Of a DNA stretch of 64,000 bases, positions 20,898 to 64,000 are shown one piece after another. Every line of letters starts with the position of its first letter. Position 1 is the stretch's first letter. Source of the DNA: Ectothiorhodosinus mongolicus. Its GTDB lineage: Bacteria; Pseudomonadota; Gammaproteobacteria; Ectothiorhodospirales; Ectothiorhodospiraceae. Both the position numbers and the translations under genes were made by a program. Where the stretch lies: NCBI RefSeq assembly GCF_022406875.1, contig NZ_CP023018.1, positions 469,575 to 533,574 on the forward strand. The letters are read 5' to 3'. Under the pieces are notes generated by a model. The model was given only the letters and a program-made list of their open reading frames with translations, searched no databases and had not been told where the DNA came from.

Positions 20898-22070
20898 TCA
20901 TTCTTCGGCTTTTTGAAACAAAGCGAGATAAGCTTGCCGAGCCATGGGGGAGCGCTTGGCTACCACCAAAACATCCTCAAGATGGTTCGGTGTGCTCATG
21001 CCCACTAAAGCCGTCCCCACTCCCGGGGCGCTGCGGTTGAATTGCAAAGAACGCTGTGCCGGGTTACTTAAATTAGGCAAGGCGCGTTCGACACTGTCTA
21101 CCGACTGCTTGGCCAAATGACCTTTGAGCATGCCATGTGATGCCAGCATATAAACTTGCAACTGATAAGCTGCCTGCAGAGCCGAGGCCACATTGCCTTT
21201 GCCTGTTGCAGTATTGAATCGGGTAAAGCCCTCGAGCATCACCTGATTAAACGGCAAACTGGCAAGACGAAAATGATGCCGCGCATTAGGCTCGCCGGTC
21301 ACCGACTGAGCGGCCCGTTCCGCTAAGCCAATCATTGAGGTCAAAGATTGAAATTGTTCCGCATCGGTCTCAACACGAAAGCCTTCGAAGGTGCTAATCC
21401 CATAAAACCGCAAGCGGTTTTCCTGCACCGCACGTTCCAGAACCTCAAAAACCGGCTCTAGCATTCGGTTGGTGGCTTCTTTACCGCGCTCAGCGATTTG
21501 CACTTCAGGCTGATCAATCAAAAACCCATCCAAAGTCTCGACACCCATCAAGTGGCGGGACAGCTCCAGCTGGAAATGGATGTATTCAGGGCTGAGCAGA
21601 TGCACACCGCCGGCCAATTGTTCCTGAGTGCCCAGACCCTGACTGATAATCTCAGCATCAAACCAGCGCGTCATGTCCTCGGGCGGACCACCACGCAACG
21701 TTAAAAAACCCCCTTTGGATATCAGGAACATAGCCTCACGTGGGACTCCCGCCTGAATGGCCGTGCGCACGCCCGCACCTACCGCCGCGAGCGATCGGCC
21801 ATAGCGGTAATGAGCCCCGGTATCAATCACATTGATACCGGCTTGCAGGGCTTGGGCAACGATGGCGCTGATACAGGCATCTACGGCGCCACTGGCTTCT
21901 CCGCCGAAACTACCCGCACCGATACTGGAGAGCTTCAAATGCTCCCGCGGAAATTCCGAGAAATGCCCGCCACCAACAAGCCCCTTTTCTTCAAGCGCTT
22001 GCGCATAATGCTCCGTGCCCTGACGGGTGGCAAAACCGGGGATGAGAAGTGGGTCTGTTTGTTTTAACAA
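20898..22070 (-). CDS. Divergent aldo/keto reductase family protein
   Basis: A 390-residue protein with the aldo/keto reductase TIM-barrel pattern. The nucleotide-side start is LSSIGAGSFGG, the barrel strand with catalytic Asp83 and a tyrosine is GINVIDTGAHYRYG, and the catalytic lysine is K119 in ISKGG. The fourth tetrad residue, normally His in a Y-x-x-H segment, is replaced: the equivalent reads LDGFLIDQPE, with Asp186. The substrate is unknown. The start is TTG; no in-frame ATG precedes the conserved core, so the N terminus is uncertain. It is 148 nt upstream of ilvI on the same strand and divergent from a small unknown gene. Confidence 0.75.
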   Translation of the reverse strand: MLKQTDPLLIPGFATRQGTEHYAQALEEKGLVGGGHFSEFPREHLKLSSIGAGSFGGEASGAVDACISAIVAQALQAGINVIDTGAHYRYGRSLAAVGAGVRTAIQAGVPREAMFLISKGGFLTLRGGPPEDMTRWFDAEIISQGLGTQEQLAGGVHLLSPEYIHFQLELSRHLMGVETLDGFLIDQPEVQIAERGKEATNRMLEPVFEVLERAVQENRLRFYGISTFEGFRVETDAEQFQSLTSMIGLAERAAQSVTGEPNARHHFRLASLPFNQVMLEGFTRFNTATGKGNVASALQAAYQLQVYMLASHGMLKGHLAKQSVDSVERALPNLSNPAQRSLQFNRSAPGVGTALVGMSTPNHLEDVLVVAKRSPMARQAYLALFQKAEE

Positions 22071-22890: not shown

Positions 22891-23259
22891 TCAGGAAAAG
22901 TAGCGAAAATAAAAATCACTGCGCGACAAATCTTCATAGAGCTTGGCGCGCTCCTCCATCCCCATGCGCATAATCTTGATCAGCGCCTCGCTTTGTTCAG
23001 CATCGACGATATGCATCTGTCCAATCACCTCTTCATCGGTATCGAGAATATCCGTAGCCAAGGCATCCGGATAGTCGGCATAGACCAAAAATGACCGGCA
23101 AGTCTCATCCTCTGGATCTAAGGGCTGCATCACCAGTTTGCCCAACCAAGCCAAACGCGCGGCCTGATTGAACTGGCGAATGTCGAATTTTTTGCCTTTA
23201 CGGTAGCGATTCAGCTGATTGCGAATGTCACTGATATTGGTAATGTCAATTTTTTTCAT
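22891..23259 (-). CDS. Uncharacterised 122-residue protein
   Basis: The family is not recognised. It starts MKKIDITNIS, is basic in the first 30 residues (RNQLNRYRKGKKFDIRQF) and acidic afterwards, with a helical C-terminal half ending in an aromatic tail (DFYFRYFS). There is no signal peptide or membrane helix. The ATG is used rather than the TTG 6 nt upstream. It is the first gene of a two-gene unit with the following 129-residue protein, suggesting a joint function. Confidence 0.62.
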   Translation of the reverse strand: MKKIDITNISDIRNQLNRYRKGKKFDIRQFNQAARLAWLGKLVMQPLDPEDETCRSFLVYADYPDALATDILDTDEEVIGQMHIVDAEQSEALIKIMRMGMEERAKLYEDLSRSDFYFRYFS

Positions 23260-23384
23260 AGCCAATGGTCATAACCTAGTAATTAAGTCGGAAAAGCATA
23301 GCCCAGTGTAGCTGACCCAAGACTAATCGGCCACTTGAAGGCCGGTGTCATGCCGTATCGACCTCTTTGACTCGACAGTCGGGC

Positions 23385-54219: not shown

Positions 54220-57048
54220 ATGCAACATATTATCGTCCGCGGCGCGCGAACCCACAATCTTCGCAATATCGACCTGGTTCTGCCTCGCGACAAACTGATT
54301 GTCATCACCGGCGTATCGGGCTCTGGCAAGTCATCTCTGGCCTTTGACACCCTATTTGCCGAAGGACAGCGGCGTTATGTGGAGTCTCTGTCTGCGTATG
54401 CGCGGCAATTTCTATCGATGATGGAAAAACCCGATGTTGACCATATCGAGGGGCTATCACCCGCTATATCTATCGAACAAAAAACCACCTCGCACAACCC
54501 CCGCTCAACCGTCGGCACAATCACCGAGATCTACGATTATCTGCGCCTGTTATTTGCGCGTGCGGGCACACCTCGCTGCCCAACCCATGGCAACAGCCTA
54601 GAGGCGCAAACGGTCAGTCAAATGGTGGATCAGATCCTGGACTTACCCGAAGGCGACAAACTCATGCTGCTGGCGCCGGTGATCAAAGAGCGCAAAGGCG
54701 AGCACCTGAATCTCTTGGATGGGCTGCGCGCTCAAGGATTTCTTCGCGCCCGTATCGACGGCGAGGTGGTCGATTTAGATGCCACACCGGATCTGGATCC
54801 CAAACGCAAACACAGTATCGAGGTGGTGGTGGATCGCTTCCGTGTTCGCGAGGACCTGCGTCTGCGCCTAGCCGAATCACTAGAAACCGCTCTGCAGCTG
54901 GCTGATGGCATTGCCTTGGTCGCCTGGATGGACGAACCGCATCGTTCACCTTTGGTGTTTTCTGCCAGCTTTGCCTGTCCTGAGTGCGGATATGCGCTAC
55001 AGGAATTAGAGCCGCGGCTGTTTTCCTTTAACAACCCCGTAGGCGCCTGCCCCAGCTGCGATGGCTTGGGCATCCACCAATATTTTGATCCAGCCCGTGT
55101 CGTGGGCCATCCTGAACTCAGCCTAGCCGGCGGAGCGATACGTGGCTGGGATCGACGCAATGCCTACTATTTCCAGCTGCTACAAGCGCTGGCGGCGCAC
55201 TATGATTTTGACATTGAAGCGCCCTTTGAGGGCCTACCGCAGCGCGTGCGTGATGTGGTGCTCTACGGCAGTGGCAGTGAGGCCATTAACTTGGCGTATC
55301 ACAATGCACGTGGTCGTGTATCGCGCACGCAACTGCCTTTTGAAGGCATTATCCCTAATTTGCAACGCCGCTATCATGAAACCGATTCCAACATGGTGCG
55401 CGAGGAGTTAGCCCGCTATCGCGCGACCCAAGCTTGCCCCGATTGCCAGGGAACACGACTCAATACCGCAGCACGCAATGTCTTTGTGGGTGAACGCACC
55501 TTGCCAGAAATCACCGCTTGGCCCATTGGTCAAGCCCGGGCATTTTTTGGTGAGCTGAGTTTACCCGGCAAACAGGGAAAGATTGCGGAAAAAATCGTCA
55601 ACGAGATCAGTGCGCGCCTAGATTTTCTCGTCAATGTGGGTTTGGATTATCTCACCTTGGATCGTTCCGCTGACACGCTCTCAGGCGGTGAAGCCCAGCG
55701 CATTCGCTTGGCCTCACAAATCGGCGCGGGCCTTGTCGGCGTCATGTATATTCTCGACGAACCCTCGATCGGCCTACATCAACGGGATAATGAGCGACTG
55801 CTCAATACGCTCACCTATTTGCGTGATTTAGGGAATACCGTGCTGGTGGTCGAGCATGATGAAGATGCCATTCGGCGCGCTGATCATGTGGTGGATATGG
55901 GGCCAGGCGCGGGTCGTCATGGTGGGCAAGTAGTGGCTCAAGGAACCCCAGAGGAAATCACGCAAACCCCGGAATCACTCACCGGACAATATCTCAGTGG
56001 CCAAAAATGTATCGCCATACCCAGCAAACGCCATCCCCCCAAGAAGACCAAACAATTGGTGATTCATGGTGCCAGTGGCAACAACCTCAAAAGTGTGGAT
56101 GCATCCATACCCATTGGCCTATTTACCTGCGTCACAGGAGTCTCGGGCTCAGGAAAATCCACGCTCATCAACGACACCTTGTACCGCCTAGTTGCCCAGC
56201 GCCTAAACAATGCCTCTGAAGCACCCGCGGCTTTTGCATCGGTCAGCGGCCTCGAGCACATCGATAAGGTCGTCGATATCGATCAAAGCCCGATTGGCCG
56301 CACGCCGCGCTCCAATCCGGCCACCTACACAGGCCTGTTCACGCCGATACGGGAACTGTTTGCTGGCACTCAGGAAGCCCGCTCCCGCGGTTATGCGCCG
56401 GGGCGCTTCTCATTTAATGTGCGTGGCGGCCGCTGCGAGGCATGCCAGGGTGATGGCGTCATCAGAGTAGAGATGCATTTTTTACCGGATGTCTATGTGC
56501 CCTGCGATGTCTGCAAGGGCAAGCGCTACAACCGCGAGACGCTCGATGTGCATTACAAAGGCAAGAATATTCATGAAGTCTTAGAAATGACCGTGGAAGA
56601 TGCCTTGGTCTTTTTTGATGCGGTACCCGTGGTCAAGCGCAAGCTAGAGACGCTGATGGATGTCGGCTTGTCTTATCTGACCTTAGGGCAAAACGCTACC
56701 ACCCTGTCCGGCGGCGAAGCACAACGAGTGAAATTAGCGCGAGAGCTGTCCAAGCGTGACACTGGCCGAACCCTCTATATTCTCGACGAACCGACCACCG
56801 GCTTACATTTTGAGGATGTGGATCAACTGCTCAAAGTGCTGCATCGTCTCAGGGATCACGGCAACACTGTGGTGGTCATCGAACACAATCTGGATGTCAT
56901 TAAAACCGCCGACTGGCTGATGGATTTAGGGCCAGAAGGGGGATCGGGCGGTGGCGTAATTATTGCTGAGGGAACCCCAGAGCAACTTACAACCAACCCG
57001 CACTCGCATACAGGACGCTTCCTAGCCCCACTGCTGAAAAAGAGCTAA
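54220..57048 (+). CDS. uvrA: Excinuclease ABC subunit A
   Basis: UvrA recognises DNA damage with UvrB in nucleotide excision repair. The 942-residue protein has two ABC ATPase modules (Walker [10 protein letters not shown] and GVSGSGKST; signature LSGGEAQR twice). It has zinc fingers (CPECGYALQ with [19 protein letters not shown] with [10 protein letters not shown]) and the UvrB-interaction domain after [14 protein letters not shown]. The length matches E. coli UvrA (940). It is divergent from ssb and ends in a hairpin facing the sHdr cluster. Confidence 0.97.
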
Positions 57049-57071
57049 CCCCCTGATAGCAGGGGGTTAGC
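57044..57071. terminator. Bidirectional hairpin between uvrA and lbpA
   Basis: A perfect 11-bp inverted repeat (GCTAACCCCCT and AGGGGGTTAGC, 6-nt loop) lies between the convergent genes and includes the uvrA TAA stop codon. No long T-run follows on either side, so termination on both strands is likely but not certain. Confidence 0.6.
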
Positions 57072-57080
57072 AGTCAACAC

Positions 57081-57521
57081 TTAGGAGCAGCCCGCAAAGC
57101 CGTCTGCGTCCATCTTCGCCTGTAAGGCGGACTGAGCGTCAGCGCCGGTTTTCAGATCTCCGGATTCGCCATCCCAATCAGCCGGGGTAATTTTCACCAA
57201 CCAGCCATTGCCATAAGGATCTTCATTGATCAAGCCAGGGTTGGCTGCTACGGCACTGTTGATGGCAGCAACATCGCCACTGATCGGAGTTTTCGCTGGA
57301 CCGACCCATTTACCCGACTCGATGGTGGCACAGGACTTATCCTTTTTAACGCCCTTGCCTTCCTTCTTGGGTGTATAGGACACCACCTGACCGGCCAAAG
57401 CACACGCGTAAGCCGTCAAACCCACTGTCACCGTGCCATCGCCCTCTTTACGAACCCAAACATTATTCTCGATGCTGTACATCAGATCATCGGGCATATC
57501 ACAGCCTTTGACTGCACCCAT
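57081..57521 (-). CDS. lbpA2: Lipoate-binding protein LbpA (GcvH-like), second copy
   Basis: A 146-residue GcvH-like carrier of the type encoded in sHdr sulfur-oxidation clusters. The lipoylation site is K71 in CATIESGKWVGP. The hammerhead fold is indicated by SIENNVWVRKEGDGTVTVGL before it and NEDPYGNGWLVKI after it. It differs from glycine-cleavage H proteins, which have an ESVKA-type site, and no glycine-cleavage genes are nearby. Cysteines 7 and 145 are near the ends, as in the other copy. GGAGG lies 6 nt before the ATG. It is the last gene of the cluster, separated from dsrE by a 60-nt AT-rich gap, so it could have a separate promoter. Confidence 0.88.
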   Translation of the reverse strand: MGAVKGCDMPDDLMYSIENNVWVRKEGDGTVTVGLTAYACALAGQVVSYTPKKEGKGVKKDKSCATIESGKWVGPAKTPISGDVAAINSAVAANPGLINEDPYGNGWLVKITPADWDGESGDLKTGADAQSALQAKMDADGFAGCS

Positions 57522-57581
57522 AGTAACCTCCGCAATGTTTAATAAAAACTTCGAAACAACCCTACAATTATCACAGTTTCC

Positions 57582-57986
57582 CTAAAACGATACCACCTTA
57601 TCGGCGCGAAGCATGAGATCGGCCAAGTCACTAGCACGAGCCACGCTGTCTACCTCCTCGATCAAGTCCGTGTCTGGATCAATTTCATAGCCAGGAAGCG
57701 CCGGCCGACATACATGCAATTGCACGCCAGCGCGCTTGGCATCGCGAATGAAATCAATCACCCGCTTACCCCCTTCCATGGCCGTTAGCGGCTCTGCAAT
57801 CCCTTTTTGCATGAGCTTTACGCCTTCCATGGTAAAAAAGATGTGCACTTCGCAATCCATGGCCGCCAAAACCGCCCCCAGATAAAAAGGCGTGGCACAA
57901 CGATGCGGGGTGCTGGGGCCACTGGTCATCACCATCACCACTGTTTGCTCTTCGGCGTCTAGAAAATCATCAGTGGCCATGGGCAT
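57582..57986 (-). CDS. DsrE-family sulfur-transfer protein
   Basis: A 134-residue protein of the DsrE/DsrF-like (YchN) fold. It begins with a strand (TVVMVMTSGPSTPHRC), followed by ATPFYLGAVLAAMDCEVHIFFTMEGV, and a single candidate sulfur-carrying cysteine, C93, in the position after QLHVC. DsrE3-type proteins relay persulfide sulfur to the sHdr/LbpA system in sulfur oxidisers. Here the gene lies 10 nt after the first lbpA and before the second. The usual partners TusA and rhodanese are not seen in the window. A second in-frame ATG at 57980 is equally possible. Confidence 0.82.
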   Translation of the reverse strand: MPMATDDFLDAEEQTVVMVMTSGPSTPHRCATPFYLGAVLAAMDCEVHIFFTMEGVKLMQKGIAEPLTAMEGGKRVIDFIRDAKRAGVQLHVCRPALPGYEIDPDTDLIEEVDSVARASDLADLMLRADKVVSF

Positions 57987-57996
57987 AAAGCCTCAG

Positions 57997-58434
57997 TTAG
58001 CGATTACAGTGAATATTGTCTCGTTTGGCGCGTTGACAATAACCCTCATGAGCAAGCTTGCCGGTCACAAAGGCATCCAAAACGGCTTGCCCGCCACCTT
58101 CGGCTTCGACGCGCGCAATCCAAGTGCCGTAGGGATCCGAGTTCAGCAGATCCGGCTGCTCCATGACATGCTCATTGGCTTCAATGATGGTGCAATTGAA
58201 AAAATTGGGAATGGGGCCCGCCCACTTGCCGCTCTCAATCGTTGCCACTGGCTTGCCAGTCGGGCGCGCCGTACCAGGCCGCCGCACGCGAACATGAAGA
58301 ATGTGACCGGCGATCGCCTGAGACAGGTCGGTCATACCAACACTGAGGCTGTCATCATCCTCTAGGCGCAACCAGATCTGGTACTCGTCGTCATAAAAGA
58401 GTTCAGGGCGAAACTCGCAACCATTGCACTCCAT
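57997..58434 (-). CDS. lbpA1: Lipoate-binding protein LbpA (GcvH-like), first copy
   Basis: A 145-residue GcvH-like lipoate carrier for the sHdr complex. K70 in VATIESGKWAGP is the lipoylation site, in the same ESGKW context as the second copy. It begins MECNGCEF and ends with a cysteine-containing tail (GYCQRA, then HC). The ATG at 58434 is preferred: GAAGG lies about 8 nt upstream and it falls just after the shdrB2 stop. A longer frame to 58497 would overlap shdrB2 by about 50 nt. LbpA is essential for sHdr-based sulfur oxidation in Hyphomicrobium. Confidence 0.88.
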   Translation of the reverse strand: MECNGCEFRPELFYDDEYQIWLRLEDDDSLSVGMTDLSQAIAGHILHVRVRRPGTARPTGKPVATIESGKWAGPIPNFFNCTIIEANEHVMEQPDLLNSDPYGTWIARVEAEGGGQAVLDAFVTGKLAHEGYCQRAKRDNIHCNR

Positions 58435-58444
58435 CACACCGCCT

Positions 58445-59356
58445 TCAGATAACGCCACGTTCCCGCAGGAAACCGATGGAATCGCTGACGTTTTCATGGA
58501 TCCCCAGCTTCCGCGGTGACAAGCCCATGGCCAAGCCTAAGAGTTGGGTAAAATAAAGCACCTTCACCCCAGTTTTGATACCAAACTCAGTCTCGGCGCG
58601 CACTTGGTGCATTTCCAATCCAGAATGACAGGTCGGACATTCGGTGGCGATTACCTCAGCCCCGGAGTCTTCCGCCGCCTGCAGCAAGTTCAGCACCAAC
58701 TGCGTCGAGGTATCAGAGTCACTCAAGGTGTGCGCTCCCCCACAGCAAGAAGTCTTTAATGGGAAGTCCACATTTACTGCGCCAGCCGCCTCCAATAAAT
58801 CATCCATGAAATGCGGCTTATAACTCGATTCCGACCCTGGACCCTGGTCTTTTTCTGGAAAGATTTGCCGCGGCCGGGTGTACATGCAACCGTAGTAGTT
58901 GGCGATTTTGATGCCATTGAGGCTTTTGGTGAATTGTTGCTTCATCCCTTCTGGCCCCAACTCTTCCATCAACCACTCCAAGAGATGGAGCGTGCGGACA
59001 TCGCCGTTATACACCGGATCATCGGATTTGCGCGCCAGATCCTGAACGGTTTGCATCACTTGCTCTGAAGTGGCGGTTTCGTATTCGGCTTTTTTGAGGT
59101 TGTGGTAACAACCATTACAGGGCGCCATGACGGTATCGATACCCATTTGTTCGGCTGCGATGGCTAAATTACGCGCGGAAAGATAGGTTTGCAGCATGGG
59201 GTGAACATTTTTCACCTCCATGGCGCCGCAGCAATTCCAGTCGCGCAGGTTTTCCATCTCCAAACCCAGCGCCTTCACCAACACGCGGGTGGACTTATCG
59301 TAGGGACCACCGGAGCCTTCCAACGCACATCCCGGATAGTAGGCAACCTTAGCCAT
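58445..59356 (-). CDS. shdrB2: sHdrB2, heterodisulfide reductase subunit B-like protein (two complete CCG domains)
   Basis: A 303-residue protein with two CCG domains that, in methanogen HdrB, bind non-cubane [4Fe-4S] clusters. Both cysteine sets are complete: C10, C42-C43, C80-x2-C83 and C157, C204-C205, C240-x2-C243. Contexts include YYPGC, DWNCCG, APCNGC and SCCGGAHT. It should be part of the cytoplasmic sHdr complex that oxidises sulfane sulfur. The ATG at 59356 follows a GGAGG site and overlaps the shdrC2 stop by 8 nt; a longer frame reaches 59383. Confidence 0.92.
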   Translation of the reverse strand: MAKVAYYPGCALEGSGGPYDKSTRVLVKALGLEMENLRDWNCCGAMEVKNVHPMLQTYLSARNLAIAAEQMGIDTVMAPCNGCYHNLKKAEYETATSEQVMQTVQDLARKSDDPVYNGDVRTLHLLEWLMEELGPEGMKQQFTKSLNGIKIANYYGCMYTRPRQIFPEKDQGPGSESSYKPHFMDDLLEAAGAVNVDFPLKTSCCGGAHTLSDSDTSTQLVLNLLQAAEDSGAEVIATECPTCHSGLEMHQVRAETEFGIKTGVKVLYFTQLLGLAMGLSPRKLGIHENVSDSIGFLRERGVI

Positions 59357-60065
59357 GAGCGGCCTCCTTCTGTTCACGAACATACTGCTTCAACACATCG
59401 CCCGTCTTGCCCCATGAGCTGGTCTTGGGCTTCATCACCTGATTACGCGCCATACGCATACCGAGATGCACCGGCAGGTACTTCATCAGGCGCACGACAA
59501 AGACCTTCAACCATTCCTGGAACAGGGGCTGGCCAGTGCGCTTGTAAAAAGCCATCAGCACGTGTCCATCTTCAATACGGCCACGCTTGTAAATCAGATC
59601 GGTGAATTCTTCGTCGAAAATCGTCGATGGCGTTTTTTCGGTAATGCCTTCCTCTTCCATCCAGTGCGCCAAGGCCTTCATCACACCTTCAGGGCGCACA
59701 TCCTTAGGACAAATGTTGGTGCACTTGTTACAGGACACGCACTGCCAAATAATGTCTTTGTCTTTGATCAGCTCTTCTTTCAATCCCAGTCGCACCGCAT
59801 AAATCCAATAGCGCGGATTAAATTGCACATTTTGTGCGTACATGGTGCAGGAGTTGGTACAAGAACCACACTGCCAGCAGCGATGCACGTTCTCTGCGCC
59901 GGGGTATTGCTGCAGCATTTTCTCAAAACCGTCGTCATAGTCGGTAATCGTGCGCGGCGTGATCATGGTGTTCCAGTGACCGGAAACATCCACACCATCG
60001 ACCACCAGCTGTTCCGACTCCAGTAAGCGCTCGGGTTCAATTAGTGACTTTTCATGAATCGCCAT
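59349..60065 (-). CDS. shdrC2: sHdrC2, heterodisulfide reductase subunit C-like ferredoxin
   Basis: A 238-residue iron-sulfur protein of the HdrC type with two [4Fe-4S] motifs: C63, C66, C69, C73 (CWQCGSCTNSC) and C109, C112, C115, C119 (CVSCNKCTNICP). HdrC passes electrons between the flavin subunit and HdrB. The second halves of the sHdr complex are encoded here as C2-B2. It begins 34 nt after the conserved unknown gene and overlaps shdrB2. Confidence 0.92.
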   Translation of the reverse strand: MAIHEKSLIEPERLLESEQLVVDGVDVSGHWNTMITPRTITDYDDGFEKMLQQYPGAENVHRCWQCGSCTNSCTMYAQNVQFNPRYWIYAVRLGLKEELIKDKDIIWQCVSCNKCTNICPKDVRPEGVMKALAHWMEEEGITEKTPSTIFDEEFTDLIYKRGRIEDGHVLMAFYKRTGQPLFQEWLKVFVVRLMKYLPVHLGMRMARNQVMKPKTSSWGKTGDVLKQYVREQKEAAHG

Positions 60066-60099: not shown

Positions 60100-60906
60100 T
60101 CAGTGCAAGGGCAAGGAGGGTGCATTGCGGGCAGGCCGCGTATTGCGCCGCTCATCAATACCCAGCAGCTTTACCACCATATCCATCGGGTCTTGTTGAC
60201 CGCCAAATTCGCTTTTAAAGATACCCAGGCTGCCGGATATGGAATCCATATAGTCGGCATAACCCCGGGCGAGAATTAAATCAGTAATAAACGGCAGATC
60301 GCGGTAGAAGCCGCTGGCCTCCAGGTGCTCAACAAACCAGGCACGAACACCTTCAAGACCCTCCGGCGACACCTCTAACGGCAGCGATTGCACCGTGTCC
60401 GCACCCGCCACAAACTCACGCACCGCACCACTCATGGTCTGACTGTCCCAAACCCAGCGTGTCATCAACGGCAAGAGCTCCGGAAAGCGGAAATGCAGGA
60501 TCTCTGCTGCCAAGTCCCAGGCCGCACCTTCCTGCTTGCGACCGCTGACCGGTAACTTGTCACAAAAATCACGCATGCGTTCCAAGATGCTTCCCTTGCT
60601 ATAAACCAACTCTAGGATGGCATCGGCGAAATGCACCTGCTCCAGGCCTTTGAGTGGCTCGGCCAATTTTCGCCGCGCTGGAAACACGCATTCGAGCAAT
60701 ACCTGAGTCACCTCACCGGGAAGGCTATCGGGTCGGCGTTCCGGGAGCGCCGCCGCGAACACTTGATGTTTGTTGCGCAGCGCATCCACATAGCTTTCCA
60801 CACCGCCCCGCTCGCGAACATCATCCAGCAGACTGGCCAACTTACTGGCAGCGATCTGCGGCTCTAGACGAAAATCGAGCGCGGCGGGTTGAATCTGCGC
60901 GAGCAT
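60100..60906 (-). CDS. Conserved sHdr-cluster protein of unknown function (hyp)
   Basis: A 268-residue soluble, mainly helical protein that always occupies this place, between shdrA and shdrC2, in known sHdr clusters. I see no cofactor motif, membrane helix or signal. It has an Arg/Glu-rich N-terminal half, an aromatic/acidic middle (RWVWDSQTMSG), and a C-terminal half with ARGYADYMDSISGSLG. It is co-transcribed, 8 nt after shdrA. Its conserved position implies a structural or assembly role in the complex, but its function is unknown. Confidence 0.85.
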   Translation of the reverse strand: MLAQIQPAALDFRLEPQIAASKLASLLDDVRERGGVESYVDALRNKHQVFAAALPERRPDSLPGEVTQVLLECVFPARRKLAEPLKGLEQVHFADAILELVYSKGSILERMRDFCDKLPVSGRKQEGAAWDLAAEILHFRFPELLPLMTRWVWDSQTMSGAVREFVAGADTVQSLPLEVSPEGLEGVRAWFVEHLEASGFYRDLPFITDLILARGYADYMDSISGSLGIFKSEFGGQQDPMDMVVKLLGIDERRNTRPARNAPSLPLH

Positions 60907-60914
60907 CGGCTTCT

Positions 60915-61967
60915 TCAGCTGGCCTGACGCATCAATGCCACGAGGTCACCCACCGCGCGACTGGCCGCTGCCGCACCCTGAGAAATCGAGTCATCGATGG
61001 TCTCGGGGCCGTAAGCCGCACCACAGGAGTAAACACCGGGACGGCTGGTGCCGCAGGGATTGGTGTAATGCTCAGCGCGCTTAATGAATCCATGATGCTC
61101 CAACTCAATCCCGAACACTTGCGAGATTTCCGGGTTGTCCTGGTTGGGATCCATACCAATGGCATGCACCACGATATCAAAGGGAATAACGATGGGACGC
61201 TTGACCAGGGTGTCTTCACCCTTCACCAAGAGGCGTCCATCGGGTGCCGCCGTAACCTCGGCAATACGCGCTTTGACGAACTTGGTTTTGAATTCTTCCT
61301 GAGACTTCCAGTAGAACTTGTCCTCATACAAGCCGAAGGTGCGGATATCCATATAGTAGATAAACACCTCGGTCTTGGGTGACATCTCTTTAATCTCGAT
61401 CGCCATATTGGCTGAGACTGTGCAGCAAATTTTCGAACACCATTCACGACCAATCTGGCGATCACGTGAGCCCACACACAAGAGAATGGCAACGCGTTCT
61501 GGGACTCGGCCATCAGACGGGCATTTCAACTCGCCACGGCCAATCATCTGTTCCATCTGGGTGGTGGTCAGCACATCTGGAAAAGTACCAAACCCCCACT
61601 CGGGCTTATTGACTGAATCAAAGTGGGTGAAGCCGGTGGCCAAAACCACCGCCCCGGCATTCACCGTTTCATTATTGGACAGCGTGGCCGTGAAGTTACC
61701 AGCCTCTCCGTCCAACTTGGTCACCTTCGCGCCTTTGTGAATGCTCACGTTGGCATCATCCTCGACCCGTTTGACCATGCGGCCGATGGCATCCTTGGCC
61801 CATTCGCCTGAAGGGACCAACTTGGCGTATCCCGACAGAATCGGTGCGCCACCCAGGGTGTCTTCCTTTTCCACCATCACGGCTTTGTAACCCGAGGCAG
61901 CGACCTGCGCTGCCGCGGAAAGACCGGACGGACCGGAGCCGACGATCAAAACGGTATCTTGGGACAT
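60915..61967 (-). CDS. shdrA: sHdrA, flavin and Fe-S subunit of the sulfur-oxidising Hdr complex
   Basis: A 350-residue flavoprotein related to methanogen HdrA. The N-terminal FAD loop is VLIVGSGPSGLSAAAQVAA. A cysteine group C164, C177, C181, C182 (LLCVGSRDR, WCSKICC) is placed to bind a [4Fe-4S] cluster near the flavin. A second dinucleotide-binding-like region follows, with SCGAAYGP near the end. It is much shorter than methanogen HdrA and lacks that protein's extra ferredoxin domains, as is typical of sHdrA. It starts 3 nt after shdrB1. Confidence 0.92.
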   Translation of the reverse strand: MSQDTVLIVGSGPSGLSAAAQVAASGYKAVMVEKEDTLGGAPILSGYAKLVPSGEWAKDAIGRMVKRVEDDANVSIHKGAKVTKLDGEAGNFTATLSNNETVNAGAVVLATGFTHFDSVNKPEWGFGTFPDVLTTTQMEQMIGRGELKCPSDGRVPERVAILLCVGSRDRQIGREWCSKICCTVSANMAIEIKEMSPKTEVFIYYMDIRTFGLYEDKFYWKSQEEFKTKFVKARIAEVTAAPDGRLLVKGEDTLVKRPIVIPFDIVVHAIGMDPNQDNPEISQVFGIELEHHGFIKRAEHYTNPCGTSRPGVYSCGAAYGPETIDDSISQGAAAASRAVGDLVALMRQAS

Positions 61968-61970
61968 TTC

Positions 61971-63377
61971 TTAGCCTCCGTATGCCAATTCTGGCTTGTA
62001 AAGGTACTCAATATTGCCGGCTTCCACTTCCTTCAAATAGGCTTGGAAGTTTTTCTTCGCCTGATCCCAGGAGATACCCATCTTCTCGACGAGATCTTCA
62101 CAAGGTGAGGCATGCCATTGCAGCTGCACGATCTTTAATGGATCTGCGCCACAAGCCAAAGCGGCAAACTGAATTTCCGCCATGATAGGAACCTGATAGT
62201 TCTGCTCATGGGCTTTACCGATCCACTGATTCTTGTCCATGGTCGTGACACAACCGGTGTCGTTGGCCAGCATCACATCTGCATTGGCTTCTTCACGCAC
62301 CACTCGAATTTTCCGATTCATGGTGAAGGAACGCGTGAATTCACGCTCAGAGATAATGTGGCGGAATCCAAAGCCACAGCAGTCATACCAGGTGGAATAG
62401 TCAATCACCTGTGCACCCAAAGCTTGGGCCATAGAGGTGATGATCGCGGTGCGGTTACCACCCAAAACTTCCGGATCATAAACCGCATCCTCGTGGATCA
62501 TTTTGTAGTAATGACAAGCCACGTGAGCGGTCGCACGAATGTGTGACACGTCGATCTTCTGCAGATCGCTGGCAATGCGATTACGCATCACATGCACCCA
62601 CTCGGAGTAGTGAATCACCTCTTCTGGGATCACTAACTTGCCATCAACCAAGCGGCCCAGCTTGCCGAGAATCTTAGTGACTTTTTCACGCAGCTCCGCC
62701 GACTCAATCAGATATTTGCGGATCTCTTTGTAGTTACCAAAAGAGGTGCCGCAATGCACTAACGGGTAGAAATGACCCAGTTCGTGGCCATGCTGCTTAC
62801 CAGAGACATAGGCTTGGTGGAAGTTTCGTAGGAACACCGCCGCCAAGGACTCGACGTTGCCAATGCCCGAACCATGATAGTTCCAAGCCGTGCAAGAGGT
62901 CTGATCAGTCTCATCCAGATAATCCTTACCCGGCACGAAACCCAGTTCATTCATCACCCATAACAAAGAAGTAGGGTAGCCGGGAATATTGCCGCACTGA
63001 CCGCAGGACTTGTGGTGCCAAAGCTGTTTAGTGGGAATCTTTTTGTCCCAGCCAAACAGAGTTTTAACGCCAATAGGTTCGTGCTGATCACCCACACGGT
63101 GGATGATGATCTCGCCTTCTTTTTCCAGTTCGTACATGTGCTCACGCACATCGTCCATACGATCACCCAGATCGATGGTGCGACGATCGACGTGTTTGCG
63201 CACCCAATCTGTGGCCTGAACCGCTTCCTCGCGGGACAGATCGGTGGACTGAAAAAAGGATCCGTGGCCGGCGATGCCTTGACCATCGGTATTGTGGAAT
63301 CCGGGCTTCATGGCACCAGGGCCAGCGCCCTCTGCCGTTGCATTGTGACCGCCAGGGGTATGTTCATTCGATGACAT
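61971..63377 (-). CDS. shdrB1: sHdrB1, heterodisulfide reductase subunit B-like protein (degenerate CCG domains)
   Basis: A 468-residue HdrB relative, longer than sHdrB2 because of a roughly 115-residue N-terminal extension rich in Gly, His and charged residues. Its CCG motifs are incomplete. The first set has C125 and C128 (SCGQC), a lone C162 (TSCTAW) and C209 (HCGTS). The second has C288, C333-C334 (DCCGFG) and C376 (DTGCVTT), without the final cysteine. It probably binds fewer or different clusters than sHdrB2. It lies 48 nt after shdrC1 and 3 nt before shdrA. Confidence 0.9.
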   Translation of the reverse strand: MSSNEHTPGGHNATAEGAGPGAMKPGFHNTDGQGIAGHGSFFQSTDLSREEAVQATDWVRKHVDRRTIDLGDRMDDVREHMYELEKEGEIIIHRVGDQHEPIGVKTLFGWDKKIPTKQLWHHKSCGQCGNIPGYPTSLLWVMNELGFVPGKDYLDETDQTSCTAWNYHGSGIGNVESLAAVFLRNFHQAYVSGKQHGHELGHFYPLVHCGTSFGNYKEIRKYLIESAELREKVTKILGKLGRLVDGKLVIPEEVIHYSEWVHVMRNRIASDLQKIDVSHIRATAHVACHYYKMIHEDAVYDPEVLGGNRTAIITSMAQALGAQVIDYSTWYDCCGFGFRHIISEREFTRSFTMNRKIRVVREEANADVMLANDTGCVTTMDKNQWIGKAHEQNYQVPIMAEIQFAALACGADPLKIVQLQWHASPCEDLVEKMGISWDQAKKNFQAYLKEVEAGNIEYLYKPELAYGG

Positions 63378-63425: not shown

Positions 63426-64000
63426 TCAGTCTTCTTCCTGCTCCTCAAGCCACTCTTCGTATTCCTCCCGTTTTTCGTCGATGAAATCCTCAATAACGTC
63501 AAAGAGGTTTTCATCCATGAGTTCCAATGATTTCAGAACCCCCGTCATCTCCCAGATCGTGTACATCTCTACGGATGTCTTTAAAGAAACTTCCCAGGCG
63601 GTGTCCGTGGTCTGCATGGTCTGCATCGGAATCGCCTTACGCAGCAACTTCAAATCGCCTTCCACTTTCTGAATATTCGGACCCCAGTCCGGGAAGTGGT
63701 CAGGCTGAATCATATCGGGTGAAAGCTGGTTACCGGTGGTGATCAATTTGAGCATCACGCGTCCAAACGGACGCAGCACATCCTTGGCCGACTGCATTTC
63801 ATGTTTGATCGCGACCTCGCGCATGATGGCGACAAGCCCGCCCGGAGAATTCTTGAAAGGACAGCGGGCGGCACAGGTCATGCACTGCGCACACGCCCAG
63901 ATCTTTTCCTGCATGGCGTCATAAATTTGTTCGACGTTTTCGGTCCACAACAGCTGCACGATCTCGCGGGGACTGTAGTCATAGAATTGAGCGGACGGGC
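63426..64000 (-). CDS. shdrC1: sHdrC1, heterodisulfide reductase subunit C-like ferredoxin (5' end outside window)
   Basis: The frame is open through base 64000, so the N terminus is missing. An internal GTG at 63959 is not the real start, because coding-like sequence (FYDYSPREI) continues upstream. The visible 191 residues include a [4Fe-4S] motif CAQCMTCAARCP. This corresponds to the second ferredoxin motif of HdrC, so the first motif, if present, lies outside the window. The C-terminal part is helical and ends very acidic (EEWLEEQEED). It is the first visible gene of the sHdr cluster. Confidence 0.88.
   Translation of the reverse strand, partial: PSAQFYDYSPREIVQLLWTENVEQIYDAMQEKIWACAQCMTCAARCPFKNSPGGLVAIMREVAIKHEMQSAKDVLRPFGRVMLKLITTGNQLSPDMIQPDHFPDWGPNIQKVEGDLKLLRKAIPMQTMQTTDTAWEVSLKTSVEMYTIWEMTGVLKSLELMDENLFDVIEDFIDEKREEYEEWLEEQEED

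Follow-up and report, generated by a model that had tools for sequence, protein, structure and literature searches.

The unusual part of the sHdr sulfur-oxidation locus of Ectothiorhodosinus mongolicus is the apparent loss of its dedicated lipoate-attaching genes, not the arrangement of the lbpA1-dsrE-lbpA2 trio at the end of the operon. The locus lies in a 64,000-nucleotide stretch of contig NZ_CP023018.1 (positions 469,575 to 533,574), referred to here as the window. It is best explained as the distal part of a type-I sHdr operon in which LbpA2 would be the core carrier, LbpA1 and the DsrE encoded between the two carriers (the internal DsrE) would be an addition, and both carriers would be lipoylated by canonical enzymes after loss of the lip genes. 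Taken as a whole, this explanation is judged to lie slightly on the probable side of even.

The operon tail and its conservation

The operon reads shdrC1-B1-A-Hyp-C2-B2-lbpA1-dsrE-lbpA2 on the minus strand and is followed by a terminator-like hairpin (Table 1). An earlier note on this DNA had placed a dsrE gene exactly between two lbpA genes with products of 145 and 146 residues, and open reading frames and alignment confirm the trio, its strand and its lipoyl lysines. The intergenic gaps are 10 nt between lbpA1 and dsrE and 60 nt between dsrE and lbpA2. The lbpA1 start assumed in that note is also the right one, because a longer open reading frame call begins at 58497, upstream of the conserved start, and the LbpA1 proteins of relatives begin with M(E/D)CNGC. 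The shdrC1 gene is longer in relatives and therefore probably runs beyond the window end. A genome-wide search for DsrA gave no match, so sHdr looks like the sole cytoplasmic route.

Table 1. Features of the sHdr operon and of the region downstream of it in the window.
Feature	Position	Strand	Description or basis
shdrC1, 3' part	63426..63959	-	NCBIfam and synteny
shdrB1	61971..63377	-	Pfam/NCBIfam and synteny
shdrA	60915..61967	-	Pfam/NCBIfam and synteny
shdr "Hyp" gene	60100..60906	-	synteny; no match in Pfam or NCBIfam
shdrC2	59349..60065	-	profile match and synteny
shdrB2	58445..59383	-	profile match and tblastn synteny; true start may be shorter; overlaps shdrC2
lbpA1	57997..58434	-	LbpA1-clade lipoate-binding protein, 145 aa; lipoyl Lys K70; conserved C6/C81/C143
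dsrE	57582..57986	-	internal DsrE sulfurtransferase, 134 aa; invariant C93; PF02635
lbpA2	57081..57521	-	LbpA2-clade lipoate-binding protein, 146 aa; lipoyl Lys K71; conserved C7/C145
predicted operon terminator	57044..57071	-	12-bp hairpin and T-run directly 3' of lbpA2; consensus match only
uvrA (presumed from its sequence)	54220..57048	+	convergent; sits where relatives carry the lip cassette
ORF directly after lipS2 in relatives	22891..23265	-	34 kb from lbpA2; 64-74% identity to L039, L042, L043 and L045
aldo-keto-reductase-like ORF (presumed)	20898..22070	-	next ancestral neighbor 3' of the lip cassette

The three proteins carry the features expected of their families. LbpA1 and LbpA2 match the Pfam GCV_H model with 92.6 and 127.7 bits, respectively, and DsrE matches PF02635 with 62.4 bits (cut-off 22.7). 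The lipoyl lysine lies within an ESGKW motif in both carriers and is invariant across all aligned rows, the N- and C-terminal cysteine pair is conserved in 99-100% of rows, and the DsrE cysteine is present in 101 of 101. The terminal cysteines and the location of both genes in the shdr cluster place the two carriers in the LbpA group.

Gene maps of the relatives' loci were made by tblastn. Among 80 named shdrB2 loci, 72 have at least 1.8 kb of downstream sequence, and the trio follows shdrB2 in the same order in 71 of these, including loci of Ectothiorhodospira, Thioalkalivibrio, Sulfuriferula and Acidithiobacillus. The lipS1, slplA and lipS2 genes are also present in 54 of the 55 loci with at least 6.5 kb downstream. 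Conservation in 71 of 72 loci means that the arrangement is not due to chance and that the three genes form a fixed module. A dsrE gene unlinked to lbpA in relatives, which would have counted against the earlier reading, is not the rule. The single named locus lacking the trio after shdrB2 is L146 (Acidithiobacillus sp. HP-2). The trio and the lip genes occur in 15/18 same-family regions and 16/18 class regions, counts that overlap the named loci because some are the same genomes. The full set is missing from G004, from G013 (two regions), from a contig end (L176) and from a cluster with LbpA2 as its only carrier (L177). The sHdr system of G013 is scattered (L048, L054, L158 and L159), with lipS1, slplA and lipS2 each at a separate place.

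The observation of the trio is correct, but the module was already known and is highly conserved. The operon is given as hdrC1B1A-hyp-hdrC2B2-lbpA1-dsrE-lbpA2 in a 2019 Thioalkalivibrio survey (PMC6382920), and LbpA1 and LbpA2 were defined as two clades and named types by Cao et al. 2018 (PMC6067878), so that neither the arrangement nor the clades are new. The Thioalkalivibrio operon described in these papers (K90mix proteins in the latter) shares the gene order, both LbpA types and the dsrE between them with the window. It differs in that lipS1-slpl(AB)-lipT-lipS2 follow lbpA2 (TK90_0641-0644, PMC10332631), whereas the window operon ends at lbpA2.

The two lipoate carriers

The window copies of LbpA1 and LbpA2 align over 106 aa with 35% identity. 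In the phylogenetic tree, LbpA1 forms one clade (44 rows, 99/94), LbpA2 a second (43 rows, 98/90) and GcvH a separate group (100/99). One window copy falls within each LbpA clade alongside Ectothiorhodospira relatives. The phylogeny thus upholds the claim of the earlier note that the pair is not a fresh duplication, and clustering of the copies as close paralogues, the outcome that would have spoken against it, is not seen. A recent duplication of lbpA is rejected; judged by their identity and the two supported clades, LbpA1 and LbpA2 are old, separately conserved paralogues. In a dN/dS comparison the synonymous sites were saturated.

Aligning 91 LbpA1 sequences together with 93 of LbpA2 shows that each clade keeps its own residue at many columns, some of them right after the lipoyl lysine (A72/V73 and P76/K77, LbpA1/LbpA2). 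A cysteine, C81, is present in 90 of 91 LbpA1 sequences, and the equivalent position in LbpA2, G82, is glycine in 91 of 93. The sole LbpA1 without C81 is that of L209, a divergent two-carrier locus. Cao et al. 2018 report seeing no conserved cysteine difference between the LbpA types (PMC6067878), and the larger sequence set used here reveals one that they did not notice. We have not met these clade-wide fixed differences, C81 included, in print.

AlphaFold2 models of LbpA1 (pLDDT 95.9) and LbpA2 (pLDDT 95.2) both have the H-protein fold. The best match of the LbpA2 model is the H-protein 1htp (Z 22.3, rmsd 1.3 over 131), and both models match E. coli H-protein 3a7l (Z about 19-22, rmsd 1.1-1.8); fold and lipoyl lysine are shared with GcvH. 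The LbpAs differ from GcvH by clade, by their sHdr-operon location and by the two conserved terminal cysteines, which Cao et al. describe as absent from GcvH (PMC6067878). The genome encodes a separate GcvH (G000:C1:1430312). Neither carrier reaches the cut-off of the GcvH equivalog TIGR00527 (115.85 bits), with scores of 93.3 for LbpA2 and 54.5 for LbpA1. LbpA2 exceeds that of the broader GcvH subfamily model NF002270 (120.9 against 117), and automated pipelines would therefore probably label it GcvH. A PDB sequence search matched GcvH for LbpA2 and 3mc3 for DsrE, with no other matches.

Orphan LbpA1-like proteins are encoded away from sHdr in two loci (L055:9237-9689 and L056:8983-9435) and group with LbpA1 on a long branch. 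Their genes adjoin those for a thioredoxin-domain protein and a COX1-like membrane protein, plus a rhodanese in L056.

The missing lipoylation cassette

The genome is a single contig of 1,995,095 bases with 99.95% completeness, and window GC is 54.7%. The gene order 3' of lbpA2 in relatives is lipS1-slplA-lipT-lipS2, a conserved ORF, and then further conserved neighbors, by their sequences presumably an aldo-keto-reductase-like gene followed by ilv genes. The window keeps these downstream neighbors at 17.5-23.3 kb, with strand and order unchanged but without the lip genes, and a block of about 34 kb that includes uvrA stands in place of the cassette (gap site 57048-57081 to 22891-23265). Exactly the cassette is therefore missing between lbpA2 and its former neighbor.

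Genome-wide searches gave no match to LipS1, no match and no candidates for LipS2, and no sLplA orthologue, the best ligase being just 32% identical to sLplA. The search for LipT covered the window. No lip pseudogene remnants were found in the window, where searches with the four lip proteins gave at best weak matches, lying inside other genes. The genome retains LipA, a LipB-like protein and a general LplA. As far as searched, the lipS1-slplA-lipT-lipS2 cassette seems to have been lost from this genome. In group I hdr-lbpA clusters, according to Cao et al., the operon strictly includes the maturation genes (PMC6067878); in the window no lipS1, slplA or lipS2 is found, either next to lbpA2 or further away. 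Gaps of this kind have precedents: Tanabe et al. 2023 report LipS1/S2 in 74.3% of sHdr bacteria (PMC10332631), and three bacterial genomes lacking the biosynthetic genes are mentioned by Cao et al. (PMC6067878).

The general LplA (G000:C1:341967) was considered as an acquired, LbpA-dedicated ligase and rejected. Orthologues at 59-68% occur in 7 other class-sample genomes; of these genomes, G051, G102 and G225 lack a true sHdrB2, and G001 carries sLplA as well. Many loci, among them L100, L134, L138 and L147, have another LplA-like gene 3' of the lip cassette, at 28-33% to this general LplA. The opposite case to the window is seen in G004 (L040, 99% complete), where tusA-lbpA2-lipS1-slplA-lipT-lipS2 are kept and the shdr genes, lbpA1 and dsrE are gone. 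No sHdrB1 or DsrA was found in that genome.

Possible roles of the two carriers

When 398 genomes of the phylum were searched, six more gave strong shdrB2 matches. Five of these and L177 from the class search have LbpA2-only clusters, all six without LbpA1 and without the internal DsrE, and all with a different DsrE upstream of shdrC1. The sixth phylum genome (L209) has both carriers and both DsrE kinds. LbpA1 and the internal DsrE are thus co-present or co-absent in these clusters, and LbpA2 is always present. We have not met this pattern in print. A weak, 50-residue DsrE-like match lies 3' of lbpA2 in L212 and L213. The internal DsrE sequences cluster apart from the others (96/86), and the window DsrE lies outside the DsrE3C-type group that holds the upstream DsrE of LbpA2-only clusters, in a tree built without the Hyphomicrobium denitrificans sequence itself. 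The H. denitrificans lip-dsrE3C-shdr-lbpA2 cluster likewise combines the sHdr core, a DsrE and a lipoylated LbpA2, and it differs from the window by a single LbpA, a DsrE upstream of the cluster and the presence of lip genes (PMC12423496, PMC10451225). Both LbpA2 (PMC6067878) and sLpl(AB) (PMC10332631) are reported to be essential in that organism.

According to published work, sulfane sulfur travels on TusA and DsrE, and LbpA is the protein that presents it to sHdr (PMC11582611, PMC12423496). In the proposed mechanism, TusA and DsrE would hand protein-bound sulfane sulfur to the dihydrolipoyl arms, and the carriers would present it at the sHdr catalytic sites with sulfite as the product. LbpA2 can be the sole carrier and is for that reason taken as the core carrier. 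LbpA1 with its internal DsrE would add an entry step at which sulfur is loaded or relayed, perhaps via the extra C81, and the carrier that takes sulfur from DsrE would, we infer, be LbpA1. Confidence in this division between the carriers is moderate. Separate jobs had been suggested in the earlier note, with one carrier loading from DsrE and the other acting in the sHdr complex. Evolution supports separate jobs through the two clades, their fixed differences, the linked dsrE and the six LbpA2-only loci, but evidence against a simple LbpA1-DsrE pairing comes from G013, in which dsrE adjoins lbpA2 and lbpA1 adjoins shdrB2 at sites about 0.9 Mb apart. The lack of C81 in L209 and the origin of the LbpA2-only loci from only four families also count against the preferred explanation.

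It is possible, if doubtful, that one job is shared by both LbpAs, as a duplication for dosage or as two carriers per complex whose divergence reflects co-evolution with different complex faces. Cao et al. 2018 proposed a shared job and likened it to the several lipoyl domains in pyruvate dehydrogenase (PMC6067878). One dedicated ligase lipoylates both Thioalkalivibrio carriers according to the same paper, the lysine and terminal cysteines are kept in both proteins, and both are predicted to have the same fold. The clade-specific columns beside the lipoyl lysine and the clade-specific cysteine argue against a shared job, as does the absence of two carriers of one type from every surveyed sHdr cluster; the orphan LbpA1-like copies lie away from sHdr.

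The reverse assignment, with DsrE serving LbpA2 and LbpA1 as the sHdr-bound shuttle, is unlikely. It would fit the dsrE-lbpA2 pair of G013 and the upstream DsrE that LbpA2-only clusters still have; G013, however, is a single, generally scattered genome, LbpA2 alone is reported to suffice for sHdr in H. denitrificans (PMC6067878), and the clusters without LbpA1 are exactly those without the internal DsrE.

Both carriers look functional by their conservation. At columns with 95% conservation or more across the rows, neither LbpA1 nor DsrE departs from the conserved residue, and LbpA2 does so twice, each time conservatively. The identity of the window copies to outgroups equals that of relatives retaining the lip genes. 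Decay of the sHdr-LbpA system after loss of the cassette, with the trio as a relic, is very unlikely: the genome is small (2.0 Mb) and LbpA2 departs more than the 0 or 1 columns of 80 of 87 rows, but every sHdr gene in the window has an open frame and is conserved to the same degree as in relatives, no alternative DsrA was found, and the LbpA2 of G004, which lost sHdr, departs further (V47E, K62R and V67L). Intact-looking LbpAs in a genome without LipS1, LipS2 and sLpl(AB) are a combination we have not met in print.

Under the preferred explanation, the loss of the lip cassette suggests that the carriers would be lipoylated by the remaining canonical enzymes, the general LplA or LipB together with LipA. 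This is the simplest route, yet it runs contrary to the specificity reported for E. coli and B. subtilis, whose canonical machineries did not modify LbpA in published tests, which argues against the replacement.

The reason for two LbpAs in many sulfur oxidizers was left unexplained in the account of Cao et al. 2018 (PMC6067878). The survey offers a specific, testable difference between the carriers, C81 in LbpA1 against G82 in LbpA2, and a partner rule among the loci surveyed, with the internal DsrE only where LbpA1 occurs. A genome that combines working-looking LbpAs with the absence of the dedicated lipoylation genes offers a natural experiment on the dependence of LbpA on sLpl(AB)-LipS1/S2. 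A bolder combination, rather improbable as a whole, would make LbpA1 and the internal DsrE a co-inherited loading unit, place C81 in sulfur transfer near the lipoyl arm and have both carriers switched to the ordinary lipoate machinery. If true, this purple sulfur bacterium would have left the archaeal-type sLpl(AB)-LipS1/S2 pathway, breaking the strict specificity so far reported.
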